From: Streptomyces lunaelactis | Lineage (GTDB): Bacteria > Actinomycetota > Actinomycetes > Streptomycetales > Streptomycetaceae | Length of the DNA: 64,000 bases | Direction: 5' to 3' | NCBI RefSeq assembly: GCF_003054555.1 | Contig: NZ_CP026304.1 | Coordinates: 6,448,001 to 6,512,000 of the forward strand | Part shown: one piece after another, positions 28,418-58,882 of the stretch | How the letters are laid out: every line of letters begins with the position of its first letter | How positions within the stretch are numbered: the first letter of the stretch is position 1 | The notes under the pieces: model-generated | What the model was told of the DNA's origin: nothing | The model's database searches: none | The model's input: only the letters and a program-made list of their open reading frames with translations | Program-made: the position numbers and the translations under genes

Positions 28418-29746
28418 ATGCAGAACGCACCTGAGTCTTCGCTGGTCGGGGAGGAGTACGAGGTCGAGGTCGGCCCCGTAGCGCACGGCGGCCACTGCAT
28501 CGCCCGCACCGAGGAGGGGCGGGTGCTGTTCGTACGGCACACGCTGCCCGGCGAGAAGATCGTCGCCCGGATCACCGAGGGCGAGGAGGACTCCCGCTTC
28601 CTGCGCGCCGACGCCGTACGGATCATCGAGGCGTCCAAGGACCGCGTCGAGGCCCCGTGCCCGTACTCCGGACCCGGCAACTGCGGCGGCTGCGACTGGC
28701 AGCACGCCAAGCCGGGCGCCCAGCGGCGGCTCAAGGGCGAGGTGATCGCCGAGCAGCTGCAGCGGCTCGCGGGCCTCACCCCCGAGGAGGCCGGCTGGGA
28801 CGGCACGGTCGTGCCCGCTGAGGGCGACAAGCTGCCGAAGGGCGAGGTGCCGGCCTGGCGCACGCGCGTGCAGTACGCGATCGACACGGAGGGCCGCGCG
28901 GGGCTGCGCAAGCACCGCTCGCACGACGTCCAGCCGATCGACCACTGCATGATCGCCGCCCCGGGGGTCACCGAGCTCGGCATCGAGAAGCAGGACTGGT
29001 CGCAGATGGCCTCGGTCGAGGCGATCGCGGCGACCGGATCCAACGACCGCCAGGTCATCCTCACCCCGCGCCCGGGCGGCCGGCTGCCGCTGGTCGAACT
29101 GGACAAGCCGGTCTCGGTGTTGCGCGTGGAGGAGCGGGACGGCGGAGTGCACCGGGTGCACGGCCGCGCCTTCGTACGGGAGCGCGCCGACGAGCGTACG
29201 TACCGCGTCGGCATGGGCGGCTTCTGGCAGGTGCACCCGCAGGCCGCGGACATCCTGGTCAAGGCCGTGATGCAGGGCCTGATGCCGCGCAAGGGCGAGT
29301 CGGCGCTCGATCTGTACTGCGGTGTGGGCCTGTTCGCGGGCGCGATCGCGGAACGGATCGGAGAGGGCGGCGGGGTGCTCGGCATCGAGTCCACCAAGCG
29401 CGCGGTCGAGGACGCCCGGCACAACCTCCAGGACCTGGAGCGGGTACGCATCGAGCACGGCAAGGTCGAACAGGTCCTGCCGCGCACGGGGATCACCGAG
29501 ACGGACCTGATCGTGCTCGACCCGCCGCGCGCGGGGGCGGGCAAGCAGACGGTGAAGCACCTGGCGGGCCTGGGCGCACGGCGCATCGCGTATGTCGCCT
29601 GCGACCCGGCGGCGCTGGCGCGCGACCTGGCGTACTTCCGCGAGGGCGGCTACAAGCCGCGCACACTGCGGGCGTTCGACCTGTTTCCGATGACCTCGCA
29701 TGTGGAGTGTGTGGCGATTCTTGAACCGACGGCAAAGGGGCTCTGA
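28418..29746 (+). CDS. Class I SAM-dependent RNA (uracil-5) methyltransferase, TrmA/RlmCD family
   Basis: The enzyme methylates C5 of a uracil in tRNA or 23S rRNA. The 442-residue protein has an N-terminal TRAM domain (1-65), cysteines 81, 89, 92 and 177 suited to a [4Fe-4S] cluster, the SAM site LDLYCGVGLFAGAIAE, the motif DPPRAGAG, nucleophile Cys395 in VACDPAAL and general base Glu430 in SHVECV. ATG at 28418 has GGAG upstream. Its final 69 bases, which encode the Glu430 region, are repeated twice further downstream, so this gene is the insertion target of the islands. The copy present here restores a complete enzyme. Confidence 0.92.
   Translation: MQNAPESSLVGEEYEVEVGPVAHGGHCIARTEEGRVLFVRHTLPGEKIVARITEGEEDSRFLRADAVRIIEASKDRVEAPCPYSGPGNCGGCDWQHAKPGAQRRLKGEVIAEQLQRLAGLTPEEAGWDGTVVPAEGDKLPKGEVPAWRTRVQYAIDTEGRAGLRKHRSHDVQPIDHCMIAAPGVTELGIEKQDWSQMASVEAIAATGSNDRQVILTPRPGGRLPLVELDKPVSVLRVEERDGGVHRVHGRAFVRERADERTYRVGMGGFWQVHPQAADILVKAVMQGLMPRKGESALDLYCGVGLFAGAIAERIGEGGGVLGIESTKRAVEDARHNLQDLERVRIEHGKVEQVLPRTGITETDLIVLDPPRAGAGKQTVKHLAGLGARRIAYVACDPAALARDLAYFREGGYKPRTLRAFDLFPMTSHVECVAILEPTAKGL
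29678..29746 (+). repeat. Attachment-like repeat, copy A (3' end of the methyltransferase gene)
   Basis: The 69 bases from the GAC of Asp to the stop codon (FDLFPMTSHVECVAILEPTA region) recur at 43260-43328 and 58750-58818. Over the last 63 bases, copies A and B match at 54 positions, and most changes are synonymous. This end of the gene was probably supplied by an incoming element. Confidence 0.8.
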
Positions 29747-30158
29747 CCTGGAGTTTTCCTAGGTCGCTCAGGCGCGGCCGGGTGTGCTCGACCTTTTTCC
29801 CGACCCCCACCAGGTGAAGGGCGCCATACGCTCGGAACCCTCCCGTCTGACATGGGGTTTCGTTAGGGGGAATGAGGATGACGGTTGAGTTCCGATTCCC
29901 TCTCGGCATGGATGGTGGCCGACGGTCTTGACGCTCGGCTGACGCCCGTTCTGATGGGTTGTCACCTTTGATGCGAACTCGACACAGGCGCCCACCACTC
30001 CCTCCAGCGCGGCACGCTCCACCACGGCGCGTTCGCGTATAGACCGTCGGGTCGTGGTCCGGCCGTCACGAGTTCGGGCAGCGGCTGTGCTTCCCTCACA
30101 GATAGCTGGCATCAAAAGGCGACAGGCGTGAAAAGCCTCGTGCGAACCTCACCCTGCC
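29747..30158. other. Left arm of island I, no gene
   Basis: This 410-bp gap is similar to the stretch that follows copy B (43329 onward), with shared pieces such as CTCGACCT, GTCTGAC and GTCTTGACGCTC. It contains the arm motif TGACGCTCGGCTGACGC at 29929-29945. No coding sequence was seen. Confidence 0.6.
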
Positions 30159-30627
30159 GGGGTGATTGGCGTCAAGACCGGTTCCTCGCCCCAGCCGGCG
30201 CCAATCTGCTCTGGACCGCCGACGCCGTCGTGGACGGCGAGGAGCGACGCGTCATCGGCATGGTGATGGGGGTGCGAACGCGGGCACACTGCGCGAGAAG
30301 TTCAGGCTGGCGATGTACATGTGCAGCCGTGGCTTGTTCGAGGCGGCGCACAAGGGCCTCACCACGGCCACGGTCGTCGAGAAGGGCGACACCGTGGGTT
30401 ACGTCGATCACGCCCCCGGCGGCCGGACACCGGTCGTCGCCACGCAGGCTATGAAACTCGTCGGCTGGCCCGGTCTGAGGGTGCCGCTGGAGCTGGGCAG
30501 CGGCGGCAAACGTGTCCCCGGGCACTCGGCGAAGGCGGGCACCGTGGTGCGGGAGATGTCCGCCGGCGAGGGCCCGGACGCGGTACGGGCCCCGTCGCCC
30601 TGCGGGACGCCCTCGCAGGGAACCTAG
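30159..30627 (+). pseudogene. D-alanyl-D-alanine carboxypeptidase fragment with two frame shifts
   Basis: The C-terminal third of a PBP-type carboxypeptidase is readable across three frames. GVIGVKTGSSP (with the KTG box) lies at 30159-30191. GANLLWTADAVVDGEERR follows in a second frame. After about 30270 a third frame gives NAGTLREKFRLAMY, DTVGYVDHAPGGRTPVVA and HSAKAGTVV. The catalytic SxxK and SxN parts are missing upstream. It is dead debris just inside the left edge of island I. Confidence 0.75.
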
Positions 30628-30843
30628 CCTCGCTGGCTCCTACGAGGTGCCTGACCGGCTGTGCATTGCCGCCGTTACGGCGCAAGCGCTGTTCGGTGGG
30701 CCGCACGGCCACCGCCGGGACTGGCGCGGGCCGTCGGTGATGGGTCACCGGCGGCCCGCGTACTCGCTGAGCGGGTCACCGGTCATCGGTTGCCCGGGCC
30801 CGGCGCGCGCCTGAGGAAGGCTGTCTCGCCGCAGCGGGAGCCT

Positions 30844-31341
30844 CTACGGAGGCGGCTGGTTGAACAGTTGGACCAGCGCGGAAAGCGGATTGCCCGGCCG
30901 GAAGTACTCGGTCTCCACGGATTCCTTGAACGACCCGTCCCGCCTGCGCTCCACAACCCTCTTGTGCTTCTTCCGGCCGCGTGTGGCCAACAGGTACATG
31001 CCGTACATCATCACGATTCCCAGGATGGCGACCTCGATGACCGGCAGCTTCGCCTTGGCGTCCAGCAGAGCGTCGCGGACCATGTCCCTTTCTCCCGGTT
31101 CCTCCCAGGCCGTCGAAAGGATCACCAGCGCACCCTGTTCGAGGTACTCCGAATGCGAGGTCAGGAGGTGGAGAAGTTCCTCCGCCTCCGCCGCGTCAGG
31201 TGCTGCTGCCAGTACCTCGTCCCTCATTTCCTCGTAGTCGAGGTCGTCTGTGTGTGCGGCGAGGTAGTAGCGGGCCGCTTGCTGCACGGTGTCGGCGTCG
31301 GCCCCGATGTGCTCGAGAAACGCTGCCAGGGATTCCGTCAT
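30844..31341 (-). CDS. Single-pass membrane protein, last gene of the CHAT operon
   Basis: The product has 165 residues. The first 80 residues are acidic and helical (LAAFLEHIGADADTVQQAAR), followed by a hydrophobic helix (PVIEVAILGIVMMYGMYLLA) near 115, a basic stop-transfer RGRKKHKR, and a tail. ATG overlaps the CHAT stop as ATGA, so it is translated with it. No family was recognised. The N-terminal helical part could be an adaptor that docks on the CHAT protein, with the single helix anchoring the complex in the membrane or acting as effector. Both are inference. Confidence 0.75.
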   Translation of the reverse strand: MTESLAAFLEHIGADADTVQQAARYYLAAHTDDLDYEEMRDEVLAAAPDAAEAEELLHLLTSHSEYLEQGALVILSTAWEEPGERDMVRDALLDAKAKLPVIEVAILGIVMMYGMYLLATRGRKKHKRVVERRRDGSFKESVETEYFRPGNPLSALVQLFNQPPP

Positions 31342-34300
31342 CGCCAGTCTCCTTCGAGGGTCAGGGACCACGCCAACCAGGTCGGCAGGTCCTCGGTCGC
31401 GTCCAGGGACGCCTGCCGGAGTGCTCGTCCCAAGGGATGTCCTTCCATGAAGCGCGCTAGGGTGGCGTCGAGGACGGGCAGTGTCGCCGAGGCCACCACG
31501 TCCCAGCCGGGAGCGACAACCGCCGAGGTTCCCGCATGGCGCAGCGCCCCGAAGATGCCGAGACGGTCGCCCAGCCCGGCGTGGTGGCTCACGCCGCTGG
31601 AGCAGGCCGCGGAGAACACCGTGCGCGAGGCGTGGGGCAGCAGGGCGCAGTCACGCCAACTGAGCCGGTGGGCATTGCCCAGCGAGCTGCCGGCGGCGAC
31701 CGAATCGGCCAGCGGCGCGTTTCCGCGATGGGCGAGCATCAACGCCACTTCACGCTCGACGTGGTTGACGAGGCCATGGCACAGCAGAACCGCGACATCA
31801 CAGCGGCGCATCACCTCCTCGAAGGCCGCCATGTCACAGGCGCCTTCCTGCGGCGCCACCGCACTCGCCCCGAGCGCCGCGGCGCGGCCTGCGGACGCGC
31901 GCAGCGCCGCAGCAACCTCGGGTTGTTCGCCCGAACGCGGCACGGTCAGGACCCCAATGCGTTCCCTCGGCGGCACAGGCTGCCGCAGGAGCGAGTGGAG
32001 GGCCGTCCAGCCCGATGCGTACGACACCGACCAGTGCGGTCCGATCGCCGTGTGCCACGGCAGGCCGGCCATCGCCGCGTGGGGCAGGACGACGACGTGA
32101 TCGTCGGCTTCGGCACAGGTGCGCAGCACATTGACCATCCACTCTTCGGCCCGGCGCCACTCCGCCTGGTCCAGGGGGTCGCCCCGACGGCGGGGGCTCC
32201 AGTCGAACAGGCGCTTGCGGAGACGCGCCCCCAGTCGGGCGTAGTCGATCTGTTCCTGCGGGAGGAAATACGTCGTGACGTGGCCGGCTGCGTCGATGCG
32301 CGTCAGCACGGAGCAGAGACCGCTGTCGCGTTGATCGTCCTGGTGACGTACGTAGAACCATTCGACCACCACCAGGCCGTGGCCCGGCTGGGCCAGCCGG
32401 GCCACGGCAGCGTCGGTGAACCCCTCGTCCAATACGGTCACGTCCGGCAACCGGCGCCGGGATGCGGCCCGCCCGGCGGCGTCGCGCTGGAGCTCGGCCA
32501 CCATGCGGAAGTCCGGCCACTCCACTCGCGCGGCACCGTGGCTCCGTTGCGACGGCTCGGGCCCGCCGTCGGTGAGGACGCCGAGCAGGAGGCCGCCGAT
32601 ATCGGCAAGCGGGGCGCCCAGTTTCGCCGGTCCGTGGACGACCTTGCTGACGTCGGGTACGCCTCCGATCTCGGCGGCCACGGCGGTCGGGACCGCCGCC
32701 AGGTGAAGCCGGGCCGCTTCGGTGTCCGCGTGGGCGTACGCGTCGAAGGCCAGCTTCAGCAGGGTCATCCCGTCGGGCGCCAGGCCATGGCGTTCCCCGA
32801 CCGCGTGGGCCTCGCGCCACGCCTCGGCCACGAGGTCGTCCCCCGGGGCGCCGGTGTTCATGGCGTCGAGAAGCTCGGCGCGGCACCTGTGGGCGGCGGC
32901 GGCGAGCGTCGCGTGACCCGCCGCCTCGCTCCGCCCCGCGAAGGCGTGCAGCAGCGGGGGCAGAGCGGCGGCCCGCGCCTCGGCCGCCGAGTGCAGCTCG
33001 GCCCGCCTGTCGAGGAGGGCCGCCCAGGCGCGGGACTCCGTCAGCAGATCGGGTCCGTCCGCTGTGGCGGCTGCCGCGCCCTTGAGCCCCGAACCACTGG
33101 TCAGGAGGCCGATCGCCTCGTCGCTCCGCCCACGGACGGCCAGCTGGTGCGCCCGGAGCAGGGCATAGTGCCGGGAGCGGTCCAAGGACGAGAGCCTCTC
33201 GGCCATGGCCAGGGCGGCCTCGGCAGCCGACCGGTCGCCGACTGCCTCGTGCGCCATGGCTTTGTACTCGAGCAGTGACGGGTCCGGCCCCGAGAGCTGT
33301 ATCGCCTTCTCGATTCCGGGCAGCGCCAGGTCGGGTCGGCCCAGGCCGAGTTGGGTCAGGGCGAGATTGGTGAGCGCCCAAGGGTGCCTCGGGGACGTCT
33401 CGTCCAGCAGACCGAGGACCGCTACCCGGATGGCGAGCGCCTCTGCCAAGCGTCCCGAACCCTCCAGCGCGGTGGCCCGTTCGTGGTGGAGGTTCACTTT
33501 CAGATCCGTGTCCAGTTCCGCTTCCCACGGCTGGGGGGCGGTGCCGAGCCTGGTGATCACCGACGCGGGCCGGTGCGCACGGTTCAGCGCTCCGGCCAGC
33601 CAGGTCTCCGAGCGGCCCCGCGCGACGCCGTCCCCGCCCAGACACTCCCGCAGGGTCACCTCGACGGCCTCCAGGTCCTCCACCCGTCCTTGGGCGACCA
33701 GGAACTCGGCATGGAGCCGGACGAGCGCGACCAGCTCATCGGGGCCGCGCGTGGCCGCCTCGCGGCGCAACTCCTGAACCACGCCCTCCACCGTGCTGAC
33801 GGTGCTGCGCAGGTGCGCCTGGCCCACCGCTTCCATCAGGTGGGGGTGCCCGGCGTCCGTGGCGATCTCTTCGAGGAGTGCGGGCCCGCCCGGCAGGTCC
33901 AGGCCCCCGCGCCCTTCGGTCATGTGCGTGGCCAGTACCGCTCCGGCGGCCCCCCAGGCGTGCTCGTGGGGGATGGTCGCCCGCGCGCGTTCGGCCGCTA
34001 CGCGGCTCGCCGTGATGTACCGCGCCGGGGGCCGCCGCGCCCGTGCCGCAAGTTCGTGCGCGAAGTAGAGCTCCGCCCACTGCTTGCCCCGGGGGTTGGG
34101 AACTCCGGTGCCGGAGTGAAGGCTTGCCAGGACGGCTTCGAGGACGTAGGGCACCAGTCCCTCCTGCCCGTGGAGGACCTCGTGCGCCGCCGCGGCCAGC
34201 CGGGACCGGTCCGGGCCCCGGTCGACGTAGGCGTGCAGATCCTCCTCGAAGGTCACGCCGGGCGGCGGCGCGCACTTGGCGTCGATGAACGCGCTCCATT

Positions 34301-34934
34301 CCCTGCACAGTTCGTCCAGCGTGGCAAGCTGTACGAGGGTCAGCGCGGCCAGGCGGTCGGCGTGGGCGTATCGGTGGGGCGCGACCAGGGGGGCCAGCGC
34401 CGAGTCGTCGGATTCGTCCGCGTCGGCGCCACCAAGCTCCAGCCGGGGGAACTCGCCGGCCACGGCGAGGTGTCCAGCGGCGAACACGGCCGGGGTGAGC
34501 GTCCGCCATTGGGCGGAGATCAGCACCGGCATCGTGCCGTCGGCGACCGCGCGGACGACGGAACGGAGCGGTCCGAGCTGCCCGGCCAGCTCCGTCGTGA
34601 CGGCCCGCCGCAGGGCTTCCGCGTCCGGATGCTCGACGAGCCGGGGGGCTGCCGCACCGGGGAGCAACGCCCGCAGATTCGCCCACATGACGGAGGCAGT
34701 GGGGCTGTGTCCCCTTACCTGTCCCGCTGTGTAGTAGGCGGCGCCCTTACTGGGGAGGACCGCGATGAGCATGGGGGTCCGCCCCAGCGCTGCCCGGCAT
34801 GCCGGGCAGCGCACACTGTCCAGATCGCCGCGCAGGAGCGCGCCGAGGAGGACGACATCGGTCTCACCGATCAGACGAACGCTGCTCCCGGCGCCCCCCT
34901 GGAACGAGGCGCCGCACCGCGCGCACCTCAACAC
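31338..34934 (-). CDS. CHAT-domain (caspase-like) protease with CpXC-like N-terminus and TPR-like middle
   Basis: The product has 1198 residues. Residues 1-60 hold two CxxC pairs (CARCGASF and CPACRAAL) separated by about 35 residues, the layout of a CpXC zinc domain. The middle is helical with TPR-like repeats, clearest around residues 540-620 (HPWALTNLALTQLGLGRPDL, DPSLLEYKAMAHEAVGDR). The C-terminal CHAT peptidase domain (about 900-1190) has the catalytic pair His1053 in LLCHGLVNH and Cys1111 in FSAACSSGVSH. The start is GTG, overlapping the AAA gene by 7 bases. CHAT proteases act in programmed death and defence modules (gasdermin activation, type III-E CRISPR). No substrate is evident here. 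Confidence 0.88.
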   Translation of the reverse strand: MLRCARCGASFQGGAGSSVRLIGETDVVLLGALLRGDLDSVRCPACRAALGRTPMLIAVLPSKGAAYYTAGQVRGHSPTASVMWANLRALLPGAAAPRLVEHPDAEALRRAVTTELAGQLGPLRSVVRAVADGTMPVLISAQWRTLTPAVFAAGHLAVAGEFPRLELGGADADESDDSALAPLVAPHRYAHADRLAALTLVQLATLDELCREWSAFIDAKCAPPPGVTFEEDLHAYVDRGPDRSRLAAAAHEVLHGQEGLVPYVLEAVLASLHSGTGVPNPRGKQWAELYFAHELAARARRPPARYITASRVAAERARATIPHEHAWGAAGAVLATHMTEGRGGLDLPGGPALLEEIATDAGHPHLMEAVGQAHLRSTVSTVEGVVQELRREAATRGPDELVALVRLHAEFLVAQGRVEDLEAVEVTLRECLGGDGVARGRSETWLAGALNRAHRPASVITRLGTAPQPWEAELDTDLKVNLHHERATALEGSGRLAEALAIRVAVLGLLDETSPRHPWALTNLALTQLGLGRPDLALPGIEKAIQLSGPDPSLLEYKAMAHEAVGDRSAAEAALAMAERLSSLDRSRHYALLRAHQLAVRGRSDEAIGLLTSGSGLKGAAAATADGPDLLTESRAWAALLDRRAELHSAAEARAAALPPLLHAFAGRSEAAGHATLAAAAHRCRAELLDAMNTGAPGDDLVAEAWREAHAVGERHGLAPDGMTLLKLAFDAYAHADTEAARLHLAAVPTAVAAEIGGVPDVSKVVHGPAKLGAPLADIGGLLLGVLTDGGPEPSQRSHGAARVEWPDFRMVAELQRDAAGRAASRRRLPDVTVLDEGFTDAAVARLAQPGHGLVVVEWFYVRHQDDQRDSGLCSVLTRIDAAGHVTTYFLPQEQIDYARLGARLRKRLFDWSPRRRGDPLDQAEWRRAEEWMVNVLRTCAEADDHVVVLPHAAMAGLPWHTAIGPHWSVSYASGWTALHSLLRQPVPPRERIGVLTVPRSGEQPEVAAALRASAGRAAALGASAVAPQEGACDMAAFEEVMRRCDVAVLLCHGLVNHVEREVALMLAHRGNAPLADSVAAGSSLGNAHRLSWRDCALLPHASRTVFSAACSSGVSHHAGLGDRLGIFGALRHAGTSAVVAPGWDVVASATLPVLDATLARFMEGHPLGRALRQASLDATEDLPTWLAWSLTLEGDWR

Positions 34935-35818
34935 GACGCCTGCCAGGACGAGCCGATACGGCGTGCCGCCTCACGTACCGCCTCGACCTCGCGCAGCAGG
35001 TCCGCGAGGGCGACGCGCCGCTCGTCCCCCTCCCGTTGGACGGCCCGCGCGGCGGCACGCACGATGACGTTGACGATGTCGGCACCGGACAGTCCTTCGG
35101 AGCGGGAAGCCAGTTCGCGCGGATCGACATCCGCGGCCCGGGGCAGTTCGTCGAGCAGCATGCGCTCCCAGAGGCGCGCCCGGGTCGCCTCGTCGGGCAA
35201 CGGAATCTCGATATGGGCGATCATGCGGCGCACGAACGCCGGGTCGTAGTCGGCGGCGCGGTTGGTGGCGAAGACCACGACCGAGCCGCCTCGGTCGAGT
35301 TCACCGAGCAGCACGGAACGGTTGAGGTTGGCGGAGTCGGCCGCCTCACCGCCCGAGTGTTCCCGGGCGGTGAGCAGCGCGTCGGCCTCGTCGAAGAACA
35401 GCACGGCACCGGTCCGCTCAGCGGCGCGGAACACCGAAGCGATGTGTTTCGGCGTGTCCCCCACGTACTTGGAGACGAGCGCGGTGTAGTCGACGACGAG
35501 CAGCTCCCGCTCCAGCGCCGAGGCCATCACCTCGGCGCAGAGCGTCTTGCCCGTGCCCGGCGGGCCGTACAGGTTGACGGCCATACCGGTCCGGTGCGGT
35601 ACCAGCCGGGCGAGGTTCCAGGTTTCCAGCAGCGTCTGCCGGTGGGTGACGATGGTCAGTGTCTGCCGGAGCTGCTCGAGGACGACGTCCGCCACGATCA
35701 GCTCGTCCAGCTTCCGTACGGGCCGTCGCCGCTCGCCCGCGACCGGGTCTTTGGCGGCCGGTGGCAGTGCGGCGACGGCGGCGGGCCGGGCTGTTCCGTT
35801 GGTGCTCCATGCCGGCAT
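34928..35818 (-). CDS. AAA+ ATPase of the CHAT operon
   Basis: The product has 296 residues. Residues 1-45 form a linker. The AAA module has Walker A GPPGTGKT (85-92), Walker B FFDEAD (141-146), sensor-1 Asn186 in VVFATN, arginines 197-198 in FVRRM and a helical lid with LSGADI. The type is that of FtsH/SpoVK/katanin-like ATPases, which form hexamers and remodel proteins. It starts one base after the preceding stop (TGACATG) and overlaps the CHAT gene. It may deliver or unfold a substrate, or gate activation of the CHAT protease. Confidence 0.9.
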   Translation of the reverse strand: MPAWSTNGTARPAAVAALPPAAKDPVAGERRRPVRKLDELIVADVVLEQLRQTLTIVTHRQTLLETWNLARLVPHRTGMAVNLYGPPGTGKTLCAEVMASALERELLVVDYTALVSKYVGDTPKHIASVFRAAERTGAVLFFDEADALLTAREHSGGEAADSANLNRSVLLGELDRGGSVVVFATNRAADYDPAFVRRMIAHIEIPLPDEATRARLWERMLLDELPRAADVDPRELASRSEGLSGADIVNVIVRAAARAVQREGDERRVALADLLREVEAVREAARRIGSSWQASC

Positions 35819-35819
35819 G

Positions 35820-36314
35820 TCAGCGCTCCCCGTTCTCGTCACCGAACAGCTCGTTGTCCCTGGTCTGCACGATCTGGAGCGTCCCCTTCTCGTGGAATGC
35901 GCGCCAGCGGGCCAGCTCCTCCTCGGAGAGGTTGCCGAGCTCGGTCCACACCTCCTGTTGCTGCTTTCTTGGGGGCTGCCCCTGTCGGGCGGCGTCGACC
36001 ACCACGCTGGTGAGCTTCAAGGCCCAGTGTCCGTTCGGCCGGCGAACCAGCTCGGCGGTCTGGTCGAGCAGTACCTGGCGGACGCGGAGCCATGCCCTGC
36101 GTACCTCGTCCAGCTTCCGCGCGGAGAGGTCGTGGATGTGCAGGTAGGCGAGCCGCAGGTCTTGGGCCAGCGCGGGGAACCGGGCCTCGGCCCACGGCAG
36201 AAGGCTCTGTTCGGCCCATTGCAGGACCCGGAGCCAAAGGGTCTCCACGGCCTTGACGGCCAGCCAGGCGGCACCCCCGGCGAAAGCCATCCAGATCAGG
36301 ATGGGAAGCGGCAT
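35820..36314 (-). CDS. N-terminally anchored membrane protein of the CHAT operon
   Basis: The product has 164 residues and starts MPLPILIWMAFAGGAAWLAV, a membrane helix. A long soluble helical region follows (LRLAYLHIHDLSARKLDEVR), with high Arg and Glu content that suggests coiled coil, and the tail is DNELFGDENGER. The start is one base after the preceding stop (TGACATG), the same junction as the next gene. No family was recognised. It may tether the AAA/CHAT complex to the membrane. Confidence 0.78.
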   Translation of the reverse strand: MPLPILIWMAFAGGAAWLAVKAVETLWLRVLQWAEQSLLPWAEARFPALAQDLRLAYLHIHDLSARKLDEVRRAWLRVRQVLLDQTAELVRRPNGHWALKLTSVVVDAARQGQPPRKQQQEVWTELGNLSEEELARWRAFHEKGTLQIVQTRDNELFGDENGER

Positions 36315-36315
36315 G

Positions 36316-36837
36316 TCACACCTCCGCCGCGGTCGGTGGATAAACGGTGAAGCGGGTCTCCGTCTCGCCGGCCATGATCCGCGCCTCGGTGACCCGGTGC
36401 GGGACGTCCAGACCGTCCGCGTACGTCTTGTTCCGGTAGACCACCGGCTTGTCGCCGTTGCGGACGACGAGTTCGACAACCCGCACGTACGGTCCTTCGA
36501 TGTACTCGAAGATCACCGTGAGGGCGATAAGGATCTCCCTCAATTGGTCGACGAGCGCCTCGTCCACCCGCTCTCCGCCCCCGGGCGAGAGGACACGGGG
36601 GTCGTCCTCCTCGCACAGCCGCATCAGAGCCACCCGCAGGGCCGCGGGCGGAGCGGGCAAGAGCTGCGCCATCCGGTCCGCCACCCGGCGGTACACATCT
36701 CGCTTGTGGTGCACGAGGCGGAGATCCACCTGGTCGCCGTCGCCGTCGCCGTCCCCGTCCTTCCGGACGGCGCGCAGAAGGCGCTGGGCGATGGTGGACC
36801 TGGTTGCGGTGGCTTCCTCCGGGACTTCGCCGGTCAC
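36316..36837 (-). CDS. First gene of the CHAT operon, unknown function
   Basis: The product has 173 residues. GTG was chosen because GAGGAGG lies 4 bases upstream. After a short N-terminus comes a DGDGDGDQ acidic repeat made by a GTC/GCC microrepeat, then a helical region (RDVYRRVADRMAQLLPAPPA, LREILIALTVIFEYIEGP) and a C-terminal beta-rich part (VELVVRNGDKPVVYRNKTYA, TRFTVYPPTA). The protein looks soluble. No domain was recognised. Being first and with the best ribosome site, it is likely made in excess over the downstream partners. Confidence 0.72.
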   Translation of the reverse strand: MTGEVPEEATATRSTIAQRLLRAVRKDGDGDGDGDQVDLRLVHHKRDVYRRVADRMAQLLPAPPAALRVALMRLCEEDDPRVLSPGGGERVDEALVDQLREILIALTVIFEYIEGPYVRVVELVVRNGDKPVVYRNKTYADGLDVPHRVTEARIMAGETETRFTVYPPTAAEV

Positions 36838-37026
36838 TGTGCCTCCTCGTGGTCGGGACGCGGGTTGCGCCCGCTGGCTCCCGCGGGGAGCCGCCCTTCC
36901 ACGGTCGCAGAGCGGCGAGCAGCCGACGATCCTCCCAGGGTGTGTGTACGGGGATGGAAACCTCCCCCTCCGAGGGGTAGCTGCCATCACCCGTCAGGTC
37001 GGCCCATGTGTGCTCGGCTCGTTGAG

Positions 37027-37039
37027 TAGGCTTGTGGCC
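37027..37039 (+). promoter_or_regulatory. Probable leaderless promoter of the response regulator
   Basis: TAGGCT ends 7 bases before the ATG and no ribosome site precedes it. The region 36838-37039 is shared with the divergent CHAT operon. Confidence 0.4.
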
Positions 37040-37705
37040 ATGCCCATCCGAGTCGTACTGGCCGAAGACGACGTACTCCTGCGCAAGGGTCTGGCCCAAC
37101 TGATCGACGCGGAGCCCGGTTTGGAGGTCGCAGGGGAGGCGGCGGACCTTTCGACGGCTCTCGAGCAGATCGACACGCTGCGTCCCGACGTCGTCGTGAC
37201 CGACATCAGGATGCCACCCATGAAGAAGGACGAAGGTATCCGGCTCGCCGCGCTGCTGCGGGAGCAACACCCCTCGATCGGTGTGGTGGTGCTGAGCCAG
37301 CACAAGGAACCGGCCTACGCCTACGCGCTGTTCGAACACGGTGTCGCTGGTCGTGGGTACCTGATCAAGGAACGGGTCGCGGAGGTGCGGGATCTGACGG
37401 ATGCCGTCCGGCAGGTGGCCGCGGGACTGTCCGTCGTCGACCCTGCCGTGGTCGAGACCATGGTGCGGACCCGCAGCAGCGGCAAGCGGTCCGCGCTGGA
37501 CGCACTGACGCCTCGGGAGCTGGAGGTGCTCCGTCACATGGCGCAGGGAAAGAGCAACGCGGCGATCGGCAAGGTGCTCGGGTTGACGGAGGGGGCGGTC
37601 CAGAAGAACACCAACGCCATTTTCGCCAAGCTCGGTATCGCAGAGGAACGGGACATCAACAAGCGGGTGCGGGCGGTGCTGCTCTTCCTCGACCAGGACG
37701 GGTAG
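37040..37705 (+). CDS. NarL/LuxR-family response regulator
   Basis: The product has 221 residues. The receiver domain has the acidic pocket in VVLAEDD, phospho-acceptor Asp55 in VVVTDIRMPP and Lys110 in YLIKERV. The C-terminal LuxR HTH includes LTPRELEVLRHMAQGKSNAA and NTNAIFAKLGI. It is divergent from the CHAT operon and convergent on the ABC-kinase operon, whose kinase is its likely partner. Sharing the CHAT promoter region, it may control that operon. Confidence 0.9.
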   Translation: MPIRVVLAEDDVLLRKGLAQLIDAEPGLEVAGEAADLSTALEQIDTLRPDVVVTDIRMPPMKKDEGIRLAALLREQHPSIGVVVLSQHKEPAYAYALFEHGVAGRGYLIKERVAEVRDLTDAVRQVAAGLSVVDPAVVETMVRTRSSGKRSALDALTPRELEVLRHMAQGKSNAAIGKVLGLTEGAVQKNTNAIFAKLGIAEERDINKRVRAVLLFLDQDG

Positions 37706-37776
37706 CGTCCGGCGCCGCGCGGACGGGCACGCCCCCGGGACCGCCCCGTGGAAGGAAACGGGCCGTGCGGCAGCCC

Positions 37777-40122
37777 TCATTCCGCCCGCAGCTCGGCGGC
37801 CACCGCGCGGTCTTCCCGCCGCGTCCAGGCGGTCGGCAGCACGATGCTCGCGACGAGCACCGCCGCGGCAGCGGCCGCCACCCATGCGCCCGGCAGGAGC
37901 ACATCCCCCTCCACCCCCGACGCGGTCGCCACCTCCCACCACACCAGCCGCCCCAGGCCCAGCCCCATCGGCACACCGAGTGCCAGGGCCGGTGCTACGA
38001 GCGCCGCGGCCATGGTGACGCGCAGCGCTCCGACCCGGACCGGGGTGAAGCCCAGTGCCCGGGCCACGGCCGTCGCCCGCCGGCTGCGCCGCCGCGTCTG
38101 CCACAGGGAATGGGTGACGGCCACGACCACCCCGGAGGCCATCACGCCGGTCAGGAAGCCGAGCAGGGGCCGCAGCCCGTCGAGCGTCGTGATCTCCTGG
38201 GGCGTCTCGGCACCGTAGATTTCGAGGTTCCGCTCCATGGACGCCCGCAGGGCTTCGAGCTGGCCGGGCTCCGCCGTGATGCGGGCGTCCTGTCTCGGCG
38301 GTGTCACCGCCACTCGGTCGAGACCGGATGGGGAGAAGACCGCGCTCGCACCGAGACGCTCGCTCGCATCGGTCGGCTGGTTGGTGATGACGCCGACGAC
38401 GCGCAGCGTCGCGGTGGATCCGTCGGCGAGGGTGACGACGAGACGGCCGTCCCGCTTCCGGGCCTGGAGCTGGTCGGCGAGCCGTGGCCCGAGGGCCACC
38501 TCATCCGCCGCGGCGGGGCGCCGACCCGAGATCACGGTCACTTCTCGGGCCCCGCTGACCGGCCGATAGGCGTAGGCGCGCACCATGTCGCCTCCAAGGA
38601 CGACTTCACCGATGCTCACGACGTCGATCGCCGCGACTCTGGCATCGGTGGCCAGGCGTGCGACGTCCGGAGCCTTGGCGTCCATCAGCGAGATGTCGGC
38701 GGGCGCCCCGTAGCGCGAGGGAGTGGACACCAGCCTGTCCAGACTGGTCGAGAACGTCGAGACAGCGACGCTCAACGTGACGACCGCCGCCAGTCCGAGG
38801 ACCTGGTTGGCCATACCGGTGCCACGGCCCTGTCCGGGCCCCCAGGCCATGCGTAGCCCGGCCAGGAGGACCGGGCTACGCCGTACGAGCGGAAGCCATG
38901 GCCCGCGCCGCGGCGTTGCGTCGCCCGCGGGCGTGCTGCGCAGGACCGCCGCGGCCGTCGCACCGGAGAGCGCGAGGTGGATCAGGGCGATGGACGTCCC
39001 GCCGATGAGCGCGATCCCCGGGTTTGGCAGGTAGCCGGGCGTGGGCTCGAACGCCCGCAGCGCGCCGAGCGGCTCCAGCAGTCCGGCGGCCAGACCGGTC
39101 GCGGTACTCGTCGAGCCCGCGACCGCCGCACTGGGTAGGGCGGCCGCCGTTCTCGCCACCGCCCGTTCGAGGCGTGTCATCCCAAGAGCCGCCTCGACGC
39201 GGTGGGCGGTGAGGCTCTGGGCGTGCCGGCGGTTGAGGGCCTGTGTCGTGATCAGGAGCGCGGCCACGGCTGTGACCCCCGCCGACATGGTGAGCCCGGC
39301 GACCAGGACCCGGCGCACGGGGGCCACCAAGGGGTCCTCGGTCGCCGTCGGATACCGCACCTGCAGCGGCCCCAGTTCCGCCAGCTCCGGGGGCGCCGGG
39401 TTGGCCGCGGCGAGAGCGGTGAAGGCCCGGTCGAAGTCCCGCCGGGGCTCGTCACCGGGAGCCAGCCGCAGAAACGAGACATGACCGGCGGAGGACGACA
39501 CGTACCGGTCGGCGAACGCGGGAGTGGCGATGGCGGTGCCAGCATCGCTTCCCCACAGCGGCATCCTTCCGATGCCGACGACGTGCAACCTCACTCGCGG
39601 ACCGGCCGGCTTGCCGAAGCCGACGCCGAAGCGGGCGACCTGCTGGCCCGTCAGCAGCGTCATGTCGATCGTCGAGCCGGCCGAGACGCCGGATGCCCGG
39701 GCGTAGTCCTCGGAGAGCAGGACCTCATGCGGGGAGCCCTCCCGCGGCTCACGGCCCTCGAGCAGCACCGGCCGGACGAGGTCGGCGGGACGGCCGGGCC
39801 CCGCCATGACGCTCAGATAGGTGAGGGGGCCACTGTCCAATCGGCCGACCCAGATGTGCGGCGCCCATGATTCCTCCACCCCCGGCAGGGACGCCACCTG
39901 CTGGAGCAGCGCGTCCTGCGCGCCCACGACATGCGTGACCGCGTCCGGGCGGTGCACCGCTGCCACCAGCCTGGGGAAGGCCGAGTCGGTGCGCTGGGTG
40001 ACAGTAATAATGGCCATCACGCACCCCCCGATCAGGCCGAATATCAAGCCGATGACCAGTGAGCCGCGCCACCGGCTGCGCCATTCGGCCTTCGCGACCG
40101 CCAGGACGGCGCCCCACTGCAC
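37777..40122 (-). CDS. FtsX-like ABC transporter permease
   Basis: The product has 781 residues with the double FtsX layout. One hydrophobic helix sits near the N-terminus (GSLVIGLIFGLIGGCVMAII), followed by a large extracytoplasmic domain and two central membrane groups. A second external domain and three C-terminal helices follow. The start is GTG, one base after the kinase stop (V-Q-W-G-A), forming one operon with the kinase and ATPase. It is the membrane partner of the LolD/MacB-type ATPase. The cargo may be an antimicrobial peptide or lipid, as with kinase-linked ABC modules, but nothing in the sequence fixes it. Confidence 0.85.
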   Translation of the reverse strand: MQWGAVLAVAKAEWRSRWRGSLVIGLIFGLIGGCVMAIITVTQRTDSAFPRLVAAVHRPDAVTHVVGAQDALLQQVASLPGVEESWAPHIWVGRLDSGPLTYLSVMAGPGRPADLVRPVLLEGREPREGSPHEVLLSEDYARASGVSAGSTIDMTLLTGQQVARFGVGFGKPAGPRVRLHVVGIGRMPLWGSDAGTAIATPAFADRYVSSSAGHVSFLRLAPGDEPRRDFDRAFTALAAANPAPPELAELGPLQVRYPTATEDPLVAPVRRVLVAGLTMSAGVTAVAALLITTQALNRRHAQSLTAHRVEAALGMTRLERAVARTAAALPSAAVAGSTSTATGLAAGLLEPLGALRAFEPTPGYLPNPGIALIGGTSIALIHLALSGATAAAVLRSTPAGDATPRRGPWLPLVRRSPVLLAGLRMAWGPGQGRGTGMANQVLGLAAVVTLSVAVSTFSTSLDRLVSTPSRYGAPADISLMDAKAPDVARLATDARVAAIDVVSIGEVVLGGDMVRAYAYRPVSGAREVTVISGRRPAAADEVALGPRLADQLQARKRDGRLVVTLADGSTATLRVVGVITNQPTDASERLGASAVFSPSGLDRVAVTPPRQDARITAEPGQLEALRASMERNLEIYGAETPQEITTLDGLRPLLGFLTGVMASGVVVAVTHSLWQTRRRSRRATAVARALGFTPVRVGALRVTMAAALVAPALALGVPMGLGLGRLVWWEVATASGVEGDVLLPGAWVAAAAAAVLVASIVLPTAWTRREDRAVAAELRAE

Positions 40123-40123
40123 G

Positions 40124-41716
40124 TCACGCCTCCCTGCGGAGTGGCACGAATCCGCACACCGTGGTCCCGGCCCCTGGCGCCGACTCACAGGTCAGCTCAC
40201 CGCCGAGTGCCCGCAGCCGGTCCTCCATGTTCAGCAGACCTCTGCCGCGGTGAACGGACGCGGGGTCGAAGCCCGGGCCGTCGTCCCGGACCATGAGGTG
40301 CAGCCGGCCCTCAGACGCCCACAGGCGGACCGACACGGAGGCGCCCGGCGCATGTTTGGCGGCGTTCTGCAACGCCTCCGCGCAGCAGAAGTAGACCGCC
40401 GCCTCCACTCCGGGCGCGTAGCGGGTGCTGTCCGGCACATCCACGGTCACCGGGGCGGCACTGCGCGCCGCCACCGCTTTCAGCGCCGCACGCAGGCCGA
40501 AATCGGTCAGCACCGCGGGGTAGATGCCGTGTGCCAGGTCCCGCAGCGCGTCTGCTGCCTCCTTGACACGTTCGGTCAGTGCATCGAGGTCCGCCAGACA
40601 GGCCGCGCGTTCCCGGTCGCCAAACCGTGCCACGCGGCACAGCGAGTCGCGGACCCGGCCGATGGCGGCGACGAGTCCGGTGATATGTGCTTGCGCACCG
40701 TCGTGGAGGTCGCGCTCGATCGCGGCCCGGGCGGCGTCCGCCGCGGTGACCAGGCGGCTGCTCGACTCCTCCAACTGCTGGTTGATGCGCCGCAGATGGC
40801 GCAGGGTGTCTCCCAGCCGCTCGTCGAGCTCCCTGTTGCGCAGCACCATCGCCAGTCGCTGGGCGACCTCCATCAACGCCCGCTCCTCGGCCTCACCGAA
40901 CCGGTCCGCGTCGTCGTCCCGCTCGACGACAACGAGGGCGAGGACGTCCCGGCCGTGGACGGCGGGTGCGAGGCGCAACTCGCAGACCGTCCGGCCCTGG
41001 AGGAGATCCGGCAGCCAGCTGTGCAGCCAGCCGGATCCCGCGACCGAGACCCTGCGGAGCAGGCGGATGTCCGTCGCCCCCACGTCACCCGGTGGTTCAG
41101 CGGGCCTTGGTACGGATACGGAGCAGCGCAACGCACCCTCCTCGGCGGTCCACAGGTGGACCGCCGAAAGCTGCCAGTGACGGCGTAACGCCTCGGCGAG
41201 CTCGCGCAGCAGATCTGCCAACTCCGCACCGTGCGCGGAGCGGGAGGAGAAGACGGCCAGGAGATCGTCCGGAAGCCGTGCCGGGGGAGGTGCCCACCGG
41301 CGCAGTGCGGGTGACACGCGCCCGGCCGACGAGACGGCGAGCACGGCGGCCAGTGCGATGCCGGCCGTGGCCGCTCCCATCAGTTCGCCCTCGCCGTGGT
41401 CGGGCAGACGTCCCAGCAGCAGTACGGTCCCGGCGACACCGGCCATGACGGCCAGGGCGGTCGCCACCACCCAAGCGGCGACTGCGGTGGCGGGGCCACT
41501 GACCCGTCGAGGGCCGGCGACGAAGCCCGCGATCGGCCACAACAGGACGGCGGGAACGACGACGGTCAGGACCATCACCGGCAATGACGGCCCTCCGGTC
41601 GCCCACCGGACGAGAAGCAGGGCACTGCCCGTGGCTGCCGCCACCACAACGGCCGAGGCGGCCAATGACACCTGGGCTCGAAGTGCCACCGCACTCGACT
41701 GTCCGGTCGGGATCAT
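40124..41716 (-). CDS. NarL-type sensor histidine kinase
   Basis: The product has 530 residues. Four hydrophobic helices lie at about 12-37, 45-67, 75-102 and 112-130, then a GAF-like region (about 150-295), a coiled linker, the HisKA_3 box AAIERDLHDGAQAHITGL with His338, and a HATPase with ALQNAAKHAPG and GRGLLNMEDRLRALGG. ATG overlaps the ATPase stop as ATGA. It is the probable partner of the NarL-type regulator on the other side of the permease gene. Confidence 0.88.
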   Translation of the reverse strand: MIPTGQSSAVALRAQVSLAASAVVVAAATGSALLLVRWATGGPSLPVMVLTVVVPAVLLWPIAGFVAGPRRVSGPATAVAAWVVATALAVMAGVAGTVLLLGRLPDHGEGELMGAATAGIALAAVLAVSSAGRVSPALRRWAPPPARLPDDLLAVFSSRSAHGAELADLLRELAEALRRHWQLSAVHLWTAEEGALRCSVSVPRPAEPPGDVGATDIRLLRRVSVAGSGWLHSWLPDLLQGRTVCELRLAPAVHGRDVLALVVVERDDDADRFGEAEERALMEVAQRLAMVLRNRELDERLGDTLRHLRRINQQLEESSSRLVTAADAARAAIERDLHDGAQAHITGLVAAIGRVRDSLCRVARFGDRERAACLADLDALTERVKEAADALRDLAHGIYPAVLTDFGLRAALKAVAARSAAPVTVDVPDSTRYAPGVEAAVYFCCAEALQNAAKHAPGASVSVRLWASEGRLHLMVRDDGPGFDPASVHRGRGLLNMEDRLRALGGELTCESAPGAGTTVCGFVPLRREA

Positions 41717-42438
41717 GCCGGCCCGCCTCCGTCCGCCATGTCCTCCCCCGGCCCGGCCTCCAGGCAGCCGTCCCGCATGTGCACGACCCGGAGCGCCGCG
41801 GCGGCGACCTCCGGATCGTGCGTGACCAGCACGATGGTCTGCCCGTCCCGGTGAAGCCGTTGCAGCAACTCGATGATCTCCCTGGTCCCGCCCGAGTCGA
41901 GGGCTCCAGTGGGCTCGTCCGCCAGCAGGAGCGTGGGCCGGTTGGCGAGCGCCCGGGCGATGGCCACCCTCTGGCGTTGCCCACCGGACAGCGTGTGCGG
42001 TAAGTCCCCCGCTCTGCCGAGCAGCCCCAGGGTGTCCAGCAGAGTGGTCGCTCGCCGCTCGCTGTCGGCGGCGGAGGCACCACTCAGGAGTGCGGCGAGC
42101 TTCACGTTCTCCAACGCGGACATCTGGGGGACCAGTTCGAAGAACTGGAAGATCATGCCGATGTGTCTGCGCCGCATCCTGGCACTCTGCGCGGCCGACA
42201 GTCTCTCGACCCGCGAGCCGGCCACCGCGATGGCGCCCTCGTCCGGTTGGTCGAGGGCCGCGACAAGGTTCAGCAAGGTGGACTTCCCACACCCTGACGG
42301 CCCCATGATGGCGACGAAGTCGCCCATGCTCACGCGGAAGTCGACTCCGCGCAATGCTCGTACCGATGCGGCTCCCGTCTCGTAGGTCTTGAACAGTCCC
42401 CGTGTGACGAGGGCATCGCTCCCCTCCCGTGCCCGCAC
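41713..42438 (-). CDS. ABC transporter ATP-binding protein (MacB/LolD type)
   Basis: The product has 241 residues with Walker A GPSGCGKST, Q-loop IFQFFELVPQ, signature LSGGQRQR, Walker B LLLADEPTG and H-loop VTHD. It is the first gene of the ATPase-kinase-permease operon. The start is a GTG, seemingly without a leader. It pairs with the FtsX-like permease two genes downstream. Confidence 0.9.
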   Translation of the reverse strand: MRAREGSDALVTRGLFKTYETGAASVRALRGVDFRVSMGDFVAIMGPSGCGKSTLLNLVAALDQPDEGAIAVAGSRVERLSAAQSARMRRRHIGMIFQFFELVPQMSALENVKLAALLSGASAADSERRATTLLDTLGLLGRAGDLPHTLSGGQRQRVAIARALANRPTLLLADEPTGALDSGGTREIIELLQRLHRDGQTIVLVTHDPEVAAAALRVVHMRDGCLEAGPGEDMADGGGPA

Positions 42439-42450
42439 ACGGCCAGCGTA
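42439..42450 (-). promoter_or_regulatory. Probable leaderless promoter of the ABC operon
   Basis: On the minus strand TACGCT ends 6 bases before the GTG start. No ribosome site is seen. Confidence 0.4.
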
Positions 42451-42507
42451 GACAGCTACGGGTCGGTAGGTGCAGGAACCATGGCATCTGCCGCACGCGG
42501 TGACTTG

Positions 42508-42858
42508 TCAGGCGCGGCCGCCGAAGTCGTACCGCTCGACGAGCTCACGGACCGCCCGCCCGACGAGGCCGCTGTCTGCGTCACTCCGAGCCCGTGACGT
42601 GAGCCGGGCGATCACGCGCCGGAGGCCGGCTGCCCTCTGCCGTTCCTGCGCACGGTACGCGGCGTCCTGCTCCAACGTAACTTGCCCGCACAGTCCATCC
42701 ACGACGAGGCCCGGCGGCGAGTGAAGTGAGCCGGGCGCTGAAGGAGAGTGTGCACATGAATCCCACGTCCGCCGCCGTGACCGCGGCGGTGGTGCATCGC
42801 GGACGTCTCGGCGGCCCTTCGACATGCAAACCTGGGGCACGTGGTCGGTACTAGCCAC
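42508..42858 (-). CDS. Doubtful small open frame
   Basis: The C-terminal half (LEQDAAYRAQERQRAAGLRR, then VGRAVRELVERYDFGGRA) has the charge pattern of a real helical protein, but the N-terminal half does not. It may be a remnant of a small gene near the right end of island I. Family and function were not recognised. Confidence 0.25.
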   Translation of the reverse strand: MASTDHVPQVCMSKGRRDVRDAPPPRSRRRTWDSCAHSPSAPGSLHSPPGLVVDGLCGQVTLEQDAAYRAQERQRAAGLRRVIARLTSRARSDADSGLVGRAVRELVERYDFGGRA

Positions 42859-43067
42859 GCTGGCTGAACACTCACAGGCTACGTGAACTGGTACATGTCG
42901 ATCCCCAACCGATCACGCCCGACTGGGCCGATCGATGGGCGGCGATGTTGGAGGACGCCCGCACCCGAGGATGGCTGCGGGCAGACGCTGTCCGGGCGCA
43001 CATCGTGGGCATCACGGAAACCTCACGCACCTCCGTTGCACCGGTCACTCTGTCACTGGCGAATTAG
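42855..43067 (+). pseudogene. Remnant open frame without a start codon
   Basis: The frame opens after a stop at 42852 and reads LRELVHVDPQPITPDWADRW, then GWLRADAVRAHIVGITE, ending TLSLAN. It has protein-like composition but no start codon and no ribosome site. It looks like the C-terminus of a lost gene. No family was recognised. Confidence 0.35.
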
Positions 43068-43167
43068 CCGATGCGCCCCGGGAGCTGGGCTGCAGGTCAG
43101 TGCAAAGAAGAGGCAAGCCTTCGCCCCAGCCAGTCGCCGGTTGATCACGACGGGCAGGCCCGCCCCG

Positions 43168-43328
43168 TGACGCTCGTTTGACGCTCAGGGTCCCAAGATG
43201 TCGTCCACCGAGCCGAGAACCCGACCCTGACCTGCGGTTTCTGTTGGCTCGCTCCCTGTGACATCTTTCCGATGACCTCGCACGTGGAGTGCGTGGCGAT
43301 TCTTGAGCCTGCCTCAAAGGCCCTCTGA
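43168..43328 (+). repeat. Attachment-like repeat, copy B with left arm
   Basis: The arm motif TGACGCTCGTTTGACGC stands at 43168-43184. The core repeat at 43260-43328 reads as the last 22 codons of a methyltransferase gene plus a stop (IFPMTSHVECVAILEPASKA). The 92-bp left flank is related to the one before copy C. A further arm motif lies to the right at 43498-43514. The layout is that of an attR/attL junction between two tandem elements. Confidence 0.8.
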
Positions 43329-43727
43329 CCTGCGGGTTCTCCTTGGCGGTCGGGCGTGGTCGGTGGCGCTCGACCTGTTTCCCCCAAGTCCACCACGTGA
43401 GGCATGGCGCACGCTACCGCCGCCTGTCTGACCTGCGGCTTCGCGTAAGGGGGGTGCAGGTTGACTCGACTTCTGCGGGCCGGTTGGGGAAACGTCTTGA
43501 CGCTCGTTCGACGCTGATTCTGACGGAGCGTCATGCGGTCGTCCCGGGTTCGCCAGCGCGGCTCAATCGGAGTGTCGGGCAGCAGCATGCTTCTAGCGAT
43601 GCACACCGGGCGGGCGGCGGCTGCTCGAGCACGGCGGGATCGTGCACGCCGAGCCGGCCTGGCGGGGGCTTCATCCTGTTCGAGTCCGGCGTCCTGGAGG
43701 CCGAGGCGGCCCGCCAACTCCGTGCCG
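43329..43727. other. Left arm of island II, no clear gene
   Basis: The first 200 bases resemble those after copy A, including the arm motif TGACGCTCGTTCGACGC (43498-43514). The rest contains open frames on both strands without ribosome sites or recognisable protein families. Confidence 0.5.
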
Positions 43728-58690: not shown

Positions 58691-58882
58691 GGCGCGGCGG
58701 GCCGAGAAAATGGGCCCTGACCTGGCCTTTTCCGAAACTCGATCAGGCCGACATCTTTCCGATGACGCATCATGTGGAGTGCGTTGCCATCCTCGAACCT
58801 GCCGCAAAGGGCGTCTGACCTGCGGTTTTAGGTGCTGTGCATTGTGGGCGTTACGGGCGATATCTTGACGCATATTCGACGC
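58657..58882 (+). repeat. Attachment-like repeat, copy C with arms
   Basis: The arm motif TGACGCTCGTTTGACGC (58657-58673) is followed, 93 bases from its start, by the core repeat (58750-58818) reading IFPMTHHVECVAILEPAAKG plus a stop. A right arm motif TGACGCATATTCGACGC lies at 58866-58882. It marks the right boundary of island II. Confidence 0.8.

Follow-up and report, generated by a model that had tools for sequence, protein, structure and literature searches.

Operon organization and gene content

The window analysed here (64,000 nucleotides of Streptomyces lunaelactis, contig NZ_CP026304.1, positions 6,448,001 to 6,512,000) carries a minus-strand operon of five genes, g1 to g5, at 30844..36837 (Table 1). 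The coordinates and tight gene coupling proposed in a first-pass annotation of the sequence were confirmed: TGACATG is present at both the g1/g2 and g2/g3 junctions, g3 and g4 overlap by 7 bases, and g4 and g5 share an ATGA. Compared with two relatives, all five genes show omega values of 0.06-0.40 and zero stops, and a plasmid homologue of the operon is annotated as five CDS; the operon is therefore more than a set of chance frames. Three of the products (g1, g2 and g5) fall in no Pfam family above cut-off and four (g1, g2, g4 and g5) have no PADLOC match. The first-pass annotation could not match the set to a named system, and no named system was matched for the operon by Pfam, NCBIfam or PADLOC.

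Table 1. Features of the operon, its mobile element and the adjoining module (window coordinates)
Feature	Position	Strand	Basis
g1, 173 aa, family not named	36316..36837	-	ORF, GTG start; no family above cut-off
g2, 164 aa, one N-terminal TM-like segment, family not named	35820..36314	-	ORF, hydropathy
g3, AAA ATPase, 296 aa	34928..35818	-	Pfam AAA, motifs
g4, 1198 aa, C-terminal CHAT protease	31338..34934	-	Pfam CHAT, His1053 and Cys1111
g5, 165 aa, membrane partner, unnamed family	30844..31341	-	family search, structure model
g4/g5 stop/start overlap ATGA	31338..31341	-	ATGA or TTGA in all eight compared loci
Element extent by repeats, roughly 13 kb	29750..43333	.	direct repeats
RNA methyltransferase gene 3' end, attachment-site-like repeat, island left end	29678..29746	+	repeat of gene 28418-29746
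Orphan methyltransferase 3' end, right end of operon-bearing element	43260..43328	+	repeat
Second orphan methyltransferase 3' end, right end of tandem second element	58750..58818	+	repeat
NarL-type response regulator, divergent from operon	37034..37705	+	Pfam; in shared cassette
FtsX-like ABC permease	37777..40122	-	25.1 bits against a cut-off of 25.5; in shared cassette
Sensor histidine kinase, start not settled	40124..41713	-	HATPase_c 4.1e-13 in ORF 40124-42496
ABC transporter ATPase	41713..42438	-	ABC_tran 2.6e-37

The g4 product is a predicted cysteine protease of the CHAT family, a member of the caspase superfamily. The earlier CHAT assignment, with His1053 and Cys1111 as the dyad, holds: Pfam CHAT (PF12770) matches at 1.3e-9, scoring 38.3 bits where the cut-off is 24, and the dyad is present in all 11 distinct proteins that were compared (an alignment of eight rows together with L019, L020 and L054). 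N-terminal zinc-ribbon-like CxxC pairs are followed by a helical/TPR-like middle and the C-terminal CHAT domain. TPR matches in the middle region lie below cut-off.

Hydropathy analysis gives one TM-like segment each in g2 (residues 5-23) and g5 (residues 101-119), in agreement with the two membrane partners originally described. The g5 model (pLDDT 82.8, pTM 0.57) comprises a six-helix domain, the TM helix (101-120) and a beta-hairpin tail; a Foldseek search of PDB chains gave no significant match for this fold. The protein belongs to an unnamed family of 93 clusters. Each residue of a Y113-G-M-Y-L117 motif within the TM helix is at least 90% conserved over 80 aligned rows, namely 78 of the 93 family hits, the window and locus L009 (whose row, here and in two other alignments, is cut at 10492, without its last residues, the frame continuing to 10543); the other 15 hits were excluded by eye as short, long or redundant. 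Judged from this alignment, such conservation exceeds what a membrane anchor should need. From its charge pattern, g5 more likely has its tail in the cytosol and its N-domain outside, an arrangement at odds with a model in which the N-domain simply docks onto a cytosolic protease.

The identification of g3 as an AAA+ ATPase is supported by Pfam (AAA 3.3e-26, lid 1.2e-9) and by intact Walker A (GPPGTGKT), Walker B, sensor (ATN) and pore loop (KYVG) motifs, a set which we take to be that of threading AAA proteins. Its nearest solved relatives are of the p97/CDC48 class, and in both NCBIfam and PADLOC it is an IteA/IetA model that matches it best (2.7e-38 and 6.2e-38). An alternative GTG start at 35842 would give a g3 product of 304 aa. 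Omega values against two copies are 0.13 and 0.27 for g1 and 0.06 and 0.09 for g2. Genes g1 to g3 were found only in three near-identical Streptomyces copies, and it is therefore operon structure and selection that inform on their role.

A mobile cassette

The proposed location of the operon in an integrative island is backed by direct repeats and by a natural comparison; the ORF scan turned up no integrase gene. Positions 30258-43333 are matched at 94.5% in Streptomyces sp. SID12501 at the same site; 29750-30172 belongs to a core-like stretch at 83.8% in the same comparison. Both chromosomal five-gene copies occupy one common integration site, a place in the Streptomyces chromosome that gathers such cargo. 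The cassette is also present on a linear plasmid. The plasmid copy is 97.5% identical and dS against SID12501 is low (mostly 0.05-0.17 for g1-g5, versus 0.51-0.52 in the core flanks), which points to horizontal movement. The cassette is also rare, and purifying selection acts on its genes.

The common cassette includes a divergent two-component/ABC-transporter module, left out of the first-pass annotation, which accompanies the operon in each of its three five-gene copies; for the third, the ABC ATPase lay outside the selection comparison, and a separate comparison matches this copy through 43333. Neighbouring defence genes are few: on the plasmid, a Shedu SduA-domain gene lies some 0.7 kb away from the operon, and the neighbouring element contains one weak remnant of AbiEii. 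Four of five neighbours of two-gene forms (two from L009 and three from L013) had no match in PADLOC, and the fifth matched a TPR model only.

The g4-g5 pair as conserved kernel

All eight loci compared carry an overlapping g4-g5 pair. They represent about six lineages, among them Allokutzneria and a plasmid of Photobacterium; for L019 and L020 the g5 start was picked so that the two genes overlap, and an ATG one codon further upstream is an alternative in L020. The g4 gene comes first and CHAT is C-terminal in every case. These counts take L055 as the same contig as L008, and exclude L036 (a 53-residue match) and L056 (G101, only a frame-broken g5 fragment). Five of the eight loci contain the pair without g1-g3. 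At the level of sequence, the conserved kernel is the two-gene g4-g5 pair and not the five-gene set: the latter stands as an operon in the window but not as a conserved unit. Since the kernel occurs elsewhere without the ATPase, the ATPase-gated proteolysis suggested earlier could hold for no more than the five-gene form of Streptomyces.

Conservation of the operon in the core of streptomycetes, which the first-pass annotation had set against its own proposal of a conflict system, is not seen. The CHAT query matched one of 120 other Streptomyces genomes (265 residues at 30% identity, with five candidates scored per genome), and this single genome carries the distant g4-g5 pair L020. A g5-profile match was obtained in 5 of 392 Streptomyces genomes, including that of the window, one of the five having a broken fragment only. 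Phage records gave no g4 or g5 match at the limits used. The g5 family can serve as a handle for finding CHAT-protease systems to which Pfam, NCBIfam and PADLOC gave no name here.

Proposed mechanism and alternatives

The g4-g5 pair resembles a switch for cell defence or cell suicide of a kind not yet described, and the predicted conflict role of the operon is likely. In the proposed model, g4 and g5 assemble into a single membrane-located complex. Either g5 or the helical middle region of g4 would sense an invader or damage to the envelope, and the CHAT protease, once switched on, would act on g5 or another membrane-proximal target, leading to loss of membrane integrity or cell arrest. In the five-gene Streptomyces form, g3 could set the threshold by remodelling the complex, perhaps tethered by g2, with g1 as an accessory, and the divergent two-component/ABC module probably controls operon expression. 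Taken as a whole, a mobile membrane-bound CHAT-protease module is the best explanation available, with a probability somewhat below even. The two-gene and five-gene forms offer a natural comparison for the contribution of the AAA ATPase.

Bacterial gasdermins likewise couple a protease to a membrane-acting protein. In a bolder and quite doubtful version of the model, g4-g5 would be a membrane executioner set off by its protease and belonging to a new structural class, in which CHAT cleavage would free the YGMYL TM of g5 to assemble into a lesion: a functional counterpart of gasdermins on an unrelated fold, to which an AAA unfoldase gate would have been added in Streptomyces. Unlike gasdermins, g5 has a fixed TM helix and a length of 165 aa; Pfam gave no gasdermin match for it or for seven relatives, Pfam coverage of bacterial gasdermins not being assured. 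The pair is a compact target for asking whether bacterial caspase-like proteases use dedicated membrane partners beyond gasdermins.

The nearest printed idea is the EACC1-caspase two-gene membrane conflict system (Kaur et al. 2020, eLife e52696, System 4). There, a caspase-superfamily protease is paired with a small protein that has short extensions around one conserved TM, mainly in actinobacteria and sporadically in proteobacteria, a plan and distribution that g4-g5 shares. By analogy, g5 could be a constant membrane sensor or anchor and not a target, sensing a membrane change upon which CHAT cleaves other host proteins or itself. The strongly conserved TM and following beta-hairpin of g5 fit this possibility, which overlaps partly with the membrane-bound module favoured above, so that the two are not exclusive; it is nevertheless rather unlikely. 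The architecture is reversed, the EACC1 gene being 5' and the caspase N-terminal in the 3' protein in the published pair, whereas the protease gene comes first and CHAT is C-terminal here. Moreover, g5 has a six-helix N-domain, unlike EACC1, and no detectable sequence relation to it. As a candidate EACC1 (PF19953) it was rejected: there is no Pfam match in g5 or seven relatives, and the hhalign probability of the g5 family alignment is 0.3% against nine EACC1 sequences. The EACC1 model does match elsewhere (8 of 60 genomes), the window's own genome being without a match.

An envelope-stress or antimicrobial-peptide response, in which the kinase, regulator and ABC permease sense and the operon is the regulated proteolytic output, is unlikely. 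The response regulator adjoins the operon divergently and the module travels with it in the three five-gene copies; however, it was not seen beside the two-gene forms, in partly annotated ORF lists, and is therefore seemingly not needed by the kernel. Resemblance to IetAS is confined to the five-gene operon, where an AAA ATPase of related type lies beside a protease. That g3 is an IetA-type ATPase whose subtilase partner has been swapped for a CHAT protease is improbable, even though IteA/IetA are its best models: it scores 132.1 bits against a cut-off of 510 with about 80 N-terminal model positions unmatched, p97-class general AAA proteins also match it strongly, no subtilase is found among the five operon proteins, and the ATPase is outside the g4-g5 kernel. 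Ordinary membrane protein quality control by a split FtsH-like machine would account for the AAA, protease and membrane anchors, but the rarity and mobility of the operon make it very improbable.

A further comparison is with TPR-CHAT (Csx29) of Craspase, from type III-E CRISPR, which is reported to be part of a defence switch; like g4, it joins a TPR-like region to a CHAT protease within a single protein. No Cas protein, Cas7-11/gRAMP included, was found among nine element genes scanned with Pfam; in place of a Cas protein, g4 has a membrane partner.

A conserved protease–membrane protein gene pair

The genes for a 1198-residue CHAT protease (g4) and a 165-residue membrane protein (g5) are adjacent and in the same order in all eight loci compared, their stop and start codons overlapping by 4 bases (ATGA in seven, TTGA in L054). 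These loci are the window, L008 (Streptomyces SID12501), L012 (a plasmid of Streptomyces NBC_00467), L009 (Allokutzneria), L013 (a plasmid of Photobacterium GJ3), L019 (another actinobacterial genus), L020 (a distant Streptomyces) and L054 (Streptomyces); we picked the g5 starts in L019 and L020, the latter offering a second ATG one codon upstream. Because the window, L008 and L012 copies are 94-97% alike, the eight loci represent about six lineages. The Photobacterium g4 is 30.5% identical to that of the window over 84% of the latter, so either the pairing is ancient or it has passed between phyla. At the most distant locus, L020, the small protein matches the g5 profile with an hhalign probability of 90% over the transmembrane segment and tail, and the CHAT protein gives a profile match at 99% probability. 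Each of the eight sequences in the CHAT protein alignment has the CHAT histidine and cysteine, as do L019, L020 and L054. Three further CHAT/g5 match pairs (P0014/P0002, P0015/P0003, P0016/P0019), within each of which the longest contig is equally long, are consistent with linkage. Transposase-like ORFs, named by eye, lie on both sides of the Photobacterium pair (L013 9733-11771 and 17751-18848).

In the window, the pair belongs to a five-gene operon located as in the first-pass annotation, with TGACATG at two junctions, one 7-base overlap and one ATGA overlap. The five-gene set proposed there is real in this genome but is not the conserved unit, since g1-g3 were found in only three of the eight loci. 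With tblastn, none of these three genes was detected in L019 or L020 (E up to 0.1) or in L054 (E up to 0.05), and L009 gave only g2 matches at chance level (E 0.5-1). In L013, the ORF list has transposase-like ORFs upstream of the pair; g1 and g2 have no match anywhere on this plasmid, which carries a general AAA relative of g3 about 530 kb from the pair.

Coordinates of the operon genes and of the methyltransferase 3' ends in the window
Feature	Position	Strand	Basis
g1	36837-36316	minus	ORF in window sequence
g2	36314-35820	minus	ORF in window sequence
g3	35818-34928	minus	ORF in window sequence
g4	34934-31338	minus	ORF in window sequence
g5	31341-30844	minus	ORF in window sequence
Methyltransferase 3' end	29678-29746	+	end of gene 28418-29746
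Orphan methyltransferase 3' end	43260-43328	+	repeat comparison
Orphan methyltransferase 3' end, further copy	58750-58818	+	repeat comparison

Protein features

The Pfam matches of g1-g5 that pass cut-off are confined to g3, which has an AAA domain (3.3e-26), its lid and overlapping general AAA models, and to g4, which has a CHAT domain (1.3e-9); these assignments, and the single transmembrane-like hydrophobic segment in each of g2 and g5, agree with the earlier reading. No meaningful match was obtained for g1, g2 or g5 in NCBIfam or PADLOC. TPR matches in g4 are below the Pfam cut-off, and its best NCBIfam model, a type III secretion chaperone (5.6e-5, below cut-off), probably sits on TPR-like repeats. 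The N-terminal end of g4 has two CxxC pairs 39 residues apart, the first kept and the second variable among the relatives compared; the CHAT domain with His1053 and Cys1111 is C-terminal. The Walker A, Walker B, sensor 1 and KYVG pore loop motifs of g3, located in its sequence, are intact. The KYVG pore loop is typical of substrate-threading AAA proteins, and the solved structures nearest to g3 by sequence are of the p97/CDC48 class.

Rarity

Single-sequence searches of 5.8 billion predicted proteins gave 11 relatives for g5 and at least six for g4 (among the 7993 candidates sharing most words). A g5 profile of 14 sequences raised the former to 93, with named hosts in Streptomyces, Actinoplanes, Actinophytocola, Kribbella, Nocardia, Actinomadura and Photobacterium. 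Scanning genome contigs for a pattern led from 19 stretches to two loci. With nine candidates scored per genome, and S. lunaelactis always included, g5 profiles matched 2 of 394 genomes in the class, 3 of 396 in the phylum (one of them over 53 residues) and, within Streptomyces, 5 of 392 (one a broken fragment). The S. lunaelactis genome has seven CHAT places, six above cut-off, and a single g5. In another Streptomyces genome, a g5-relative fragment with a broken frame (L056 7422-7547) suggests decay of such systems.

Possible mode of action

The genes g4 and g5 overlap, pairing a protease whose catalytic dyad is intact with a membrane protein, and in Streptomyces they are mobile. Their products likely make one membrane-bound protease unit that is kept inactive. 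An invader or envelope signal would activate it, g5 acting as target or as sensor, and in the five-gene form the ATPase may set the threshold. We give this reading as a whole slightly under an even chance. The nearest published idea, judging from the main text of Kaur et al. 2020 (PMC7159879), in which the word CHAT is absent, is the EACC1-caspase pair; the comparison also drew on part of PMC8195603. The main rival, that g5 is a sensor only, as proposed for the small membrane component EACC1, seems somewhat less likely. For the Streptomyces form, the divergent module of NarL-type response regulator, FtsX-like ABC permease, sensor histidine kinase and ABC transporter ATPase points to an envelope signal; no such module was seen in the two-gene regions, whose ORF lists were partly annotated. 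The listed titles and abstract openings on CHAT with conflict systems, gasdermin, defence/phage, Streptomyces and AAA, TPR-CHAT transmembrane and AAA antiphage, which leave subscription literature mostly uncovered, contained no description of the pair, which may still have been described elsewhere.

Horizontal transfer and integration site

The cassette of operon and divergent module, without repeats (30835-42533), is found at 97.5% identity on the 396-kb linear plasmid of L012. In the comparison of the window with SID12501, dS lies at 0.05-0.17 for the five operon genes, FtsX and the kinase (over 406 codons of the kinase) and at 0.30 for the response regulator, while two core genes in the flanks have 0.51 and 0.52; the ABC ATPase, outside the fetched SID12501 piece, was left out. 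Since cassette dS is below that of the core flanks, the cassette moved horizontally after the two chromosomes split. Omega values of 0.06-0.40 across the cassette genes compared indicate that the encoded proteins are maintained. G+C shows neither a marked dip nor a rise over the operon, so composition gives a foreign origin no support. On the plasmid, a short Shedu SduA-domain gene (L012 19775-20290) lies about 0.7 kb past g5.

The C-terminal end of an RNA methyltransferase gene (28418-29746, plus strand) recurs as two orphan copies, the three ends coding, in table order, for DLFPMTSHVECVAILEPTAKGL, DIFPMTSHVECVAILEPASKAL and DIFPMTHHVECVAILEPAAKGV. A whole-genome protein search recovered both copies and one more at C1:134959-135033; each of 12 relatives has a single match. 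The copies in the window look like the marks of two tandem integrated elements. SID12501 has a like element in the same place. It matches window 30258-43333 with 94.5% identity and terminates at its own repeat copy, so the right end lies near 43.33 kb. This copy and about 90 bases beyond resemble window 58752-58912 (76% over 169 bases). The left end, about 29.75 kb by the repeats, is less sharp; because 29750-30172 falls within an 83.8% core-like stretch relative to SID12501, the recently shared part begins at about 30.26 kb. TTGACGC-type repeats accompany the methyltransferase-end copies and, by eye, follow the stop codon in six of the eight same-genus relatives displayed (absent in L042 and L045), so the methyltransferase 3' end resembles a shared site of integration. 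None of the ORFs scanned, among them some but not all of the small ones, was identified as an integrase. The attachment-site-like stretch 43167-43400 has matches of about 70% identity at two places on each of three further large Streptomyces replicons in a plasmid collection, hinting at an element family that also lives on plasmids.

The SID12501 comparison also suggests a second, tandem insertion at 43.3-58.8 kb. Its MBL-fold, rhodanese-like, TauE-like, thioredoxin-like and CsoR-like genes, mostly named by eye, are apparently a sulfur-handling set. Within it, 43728-44309 may be what is left of an AbiEii-type nucleotidyltransferase (Pfam 6e-4, below cut-off; PADLOC 3e-3).
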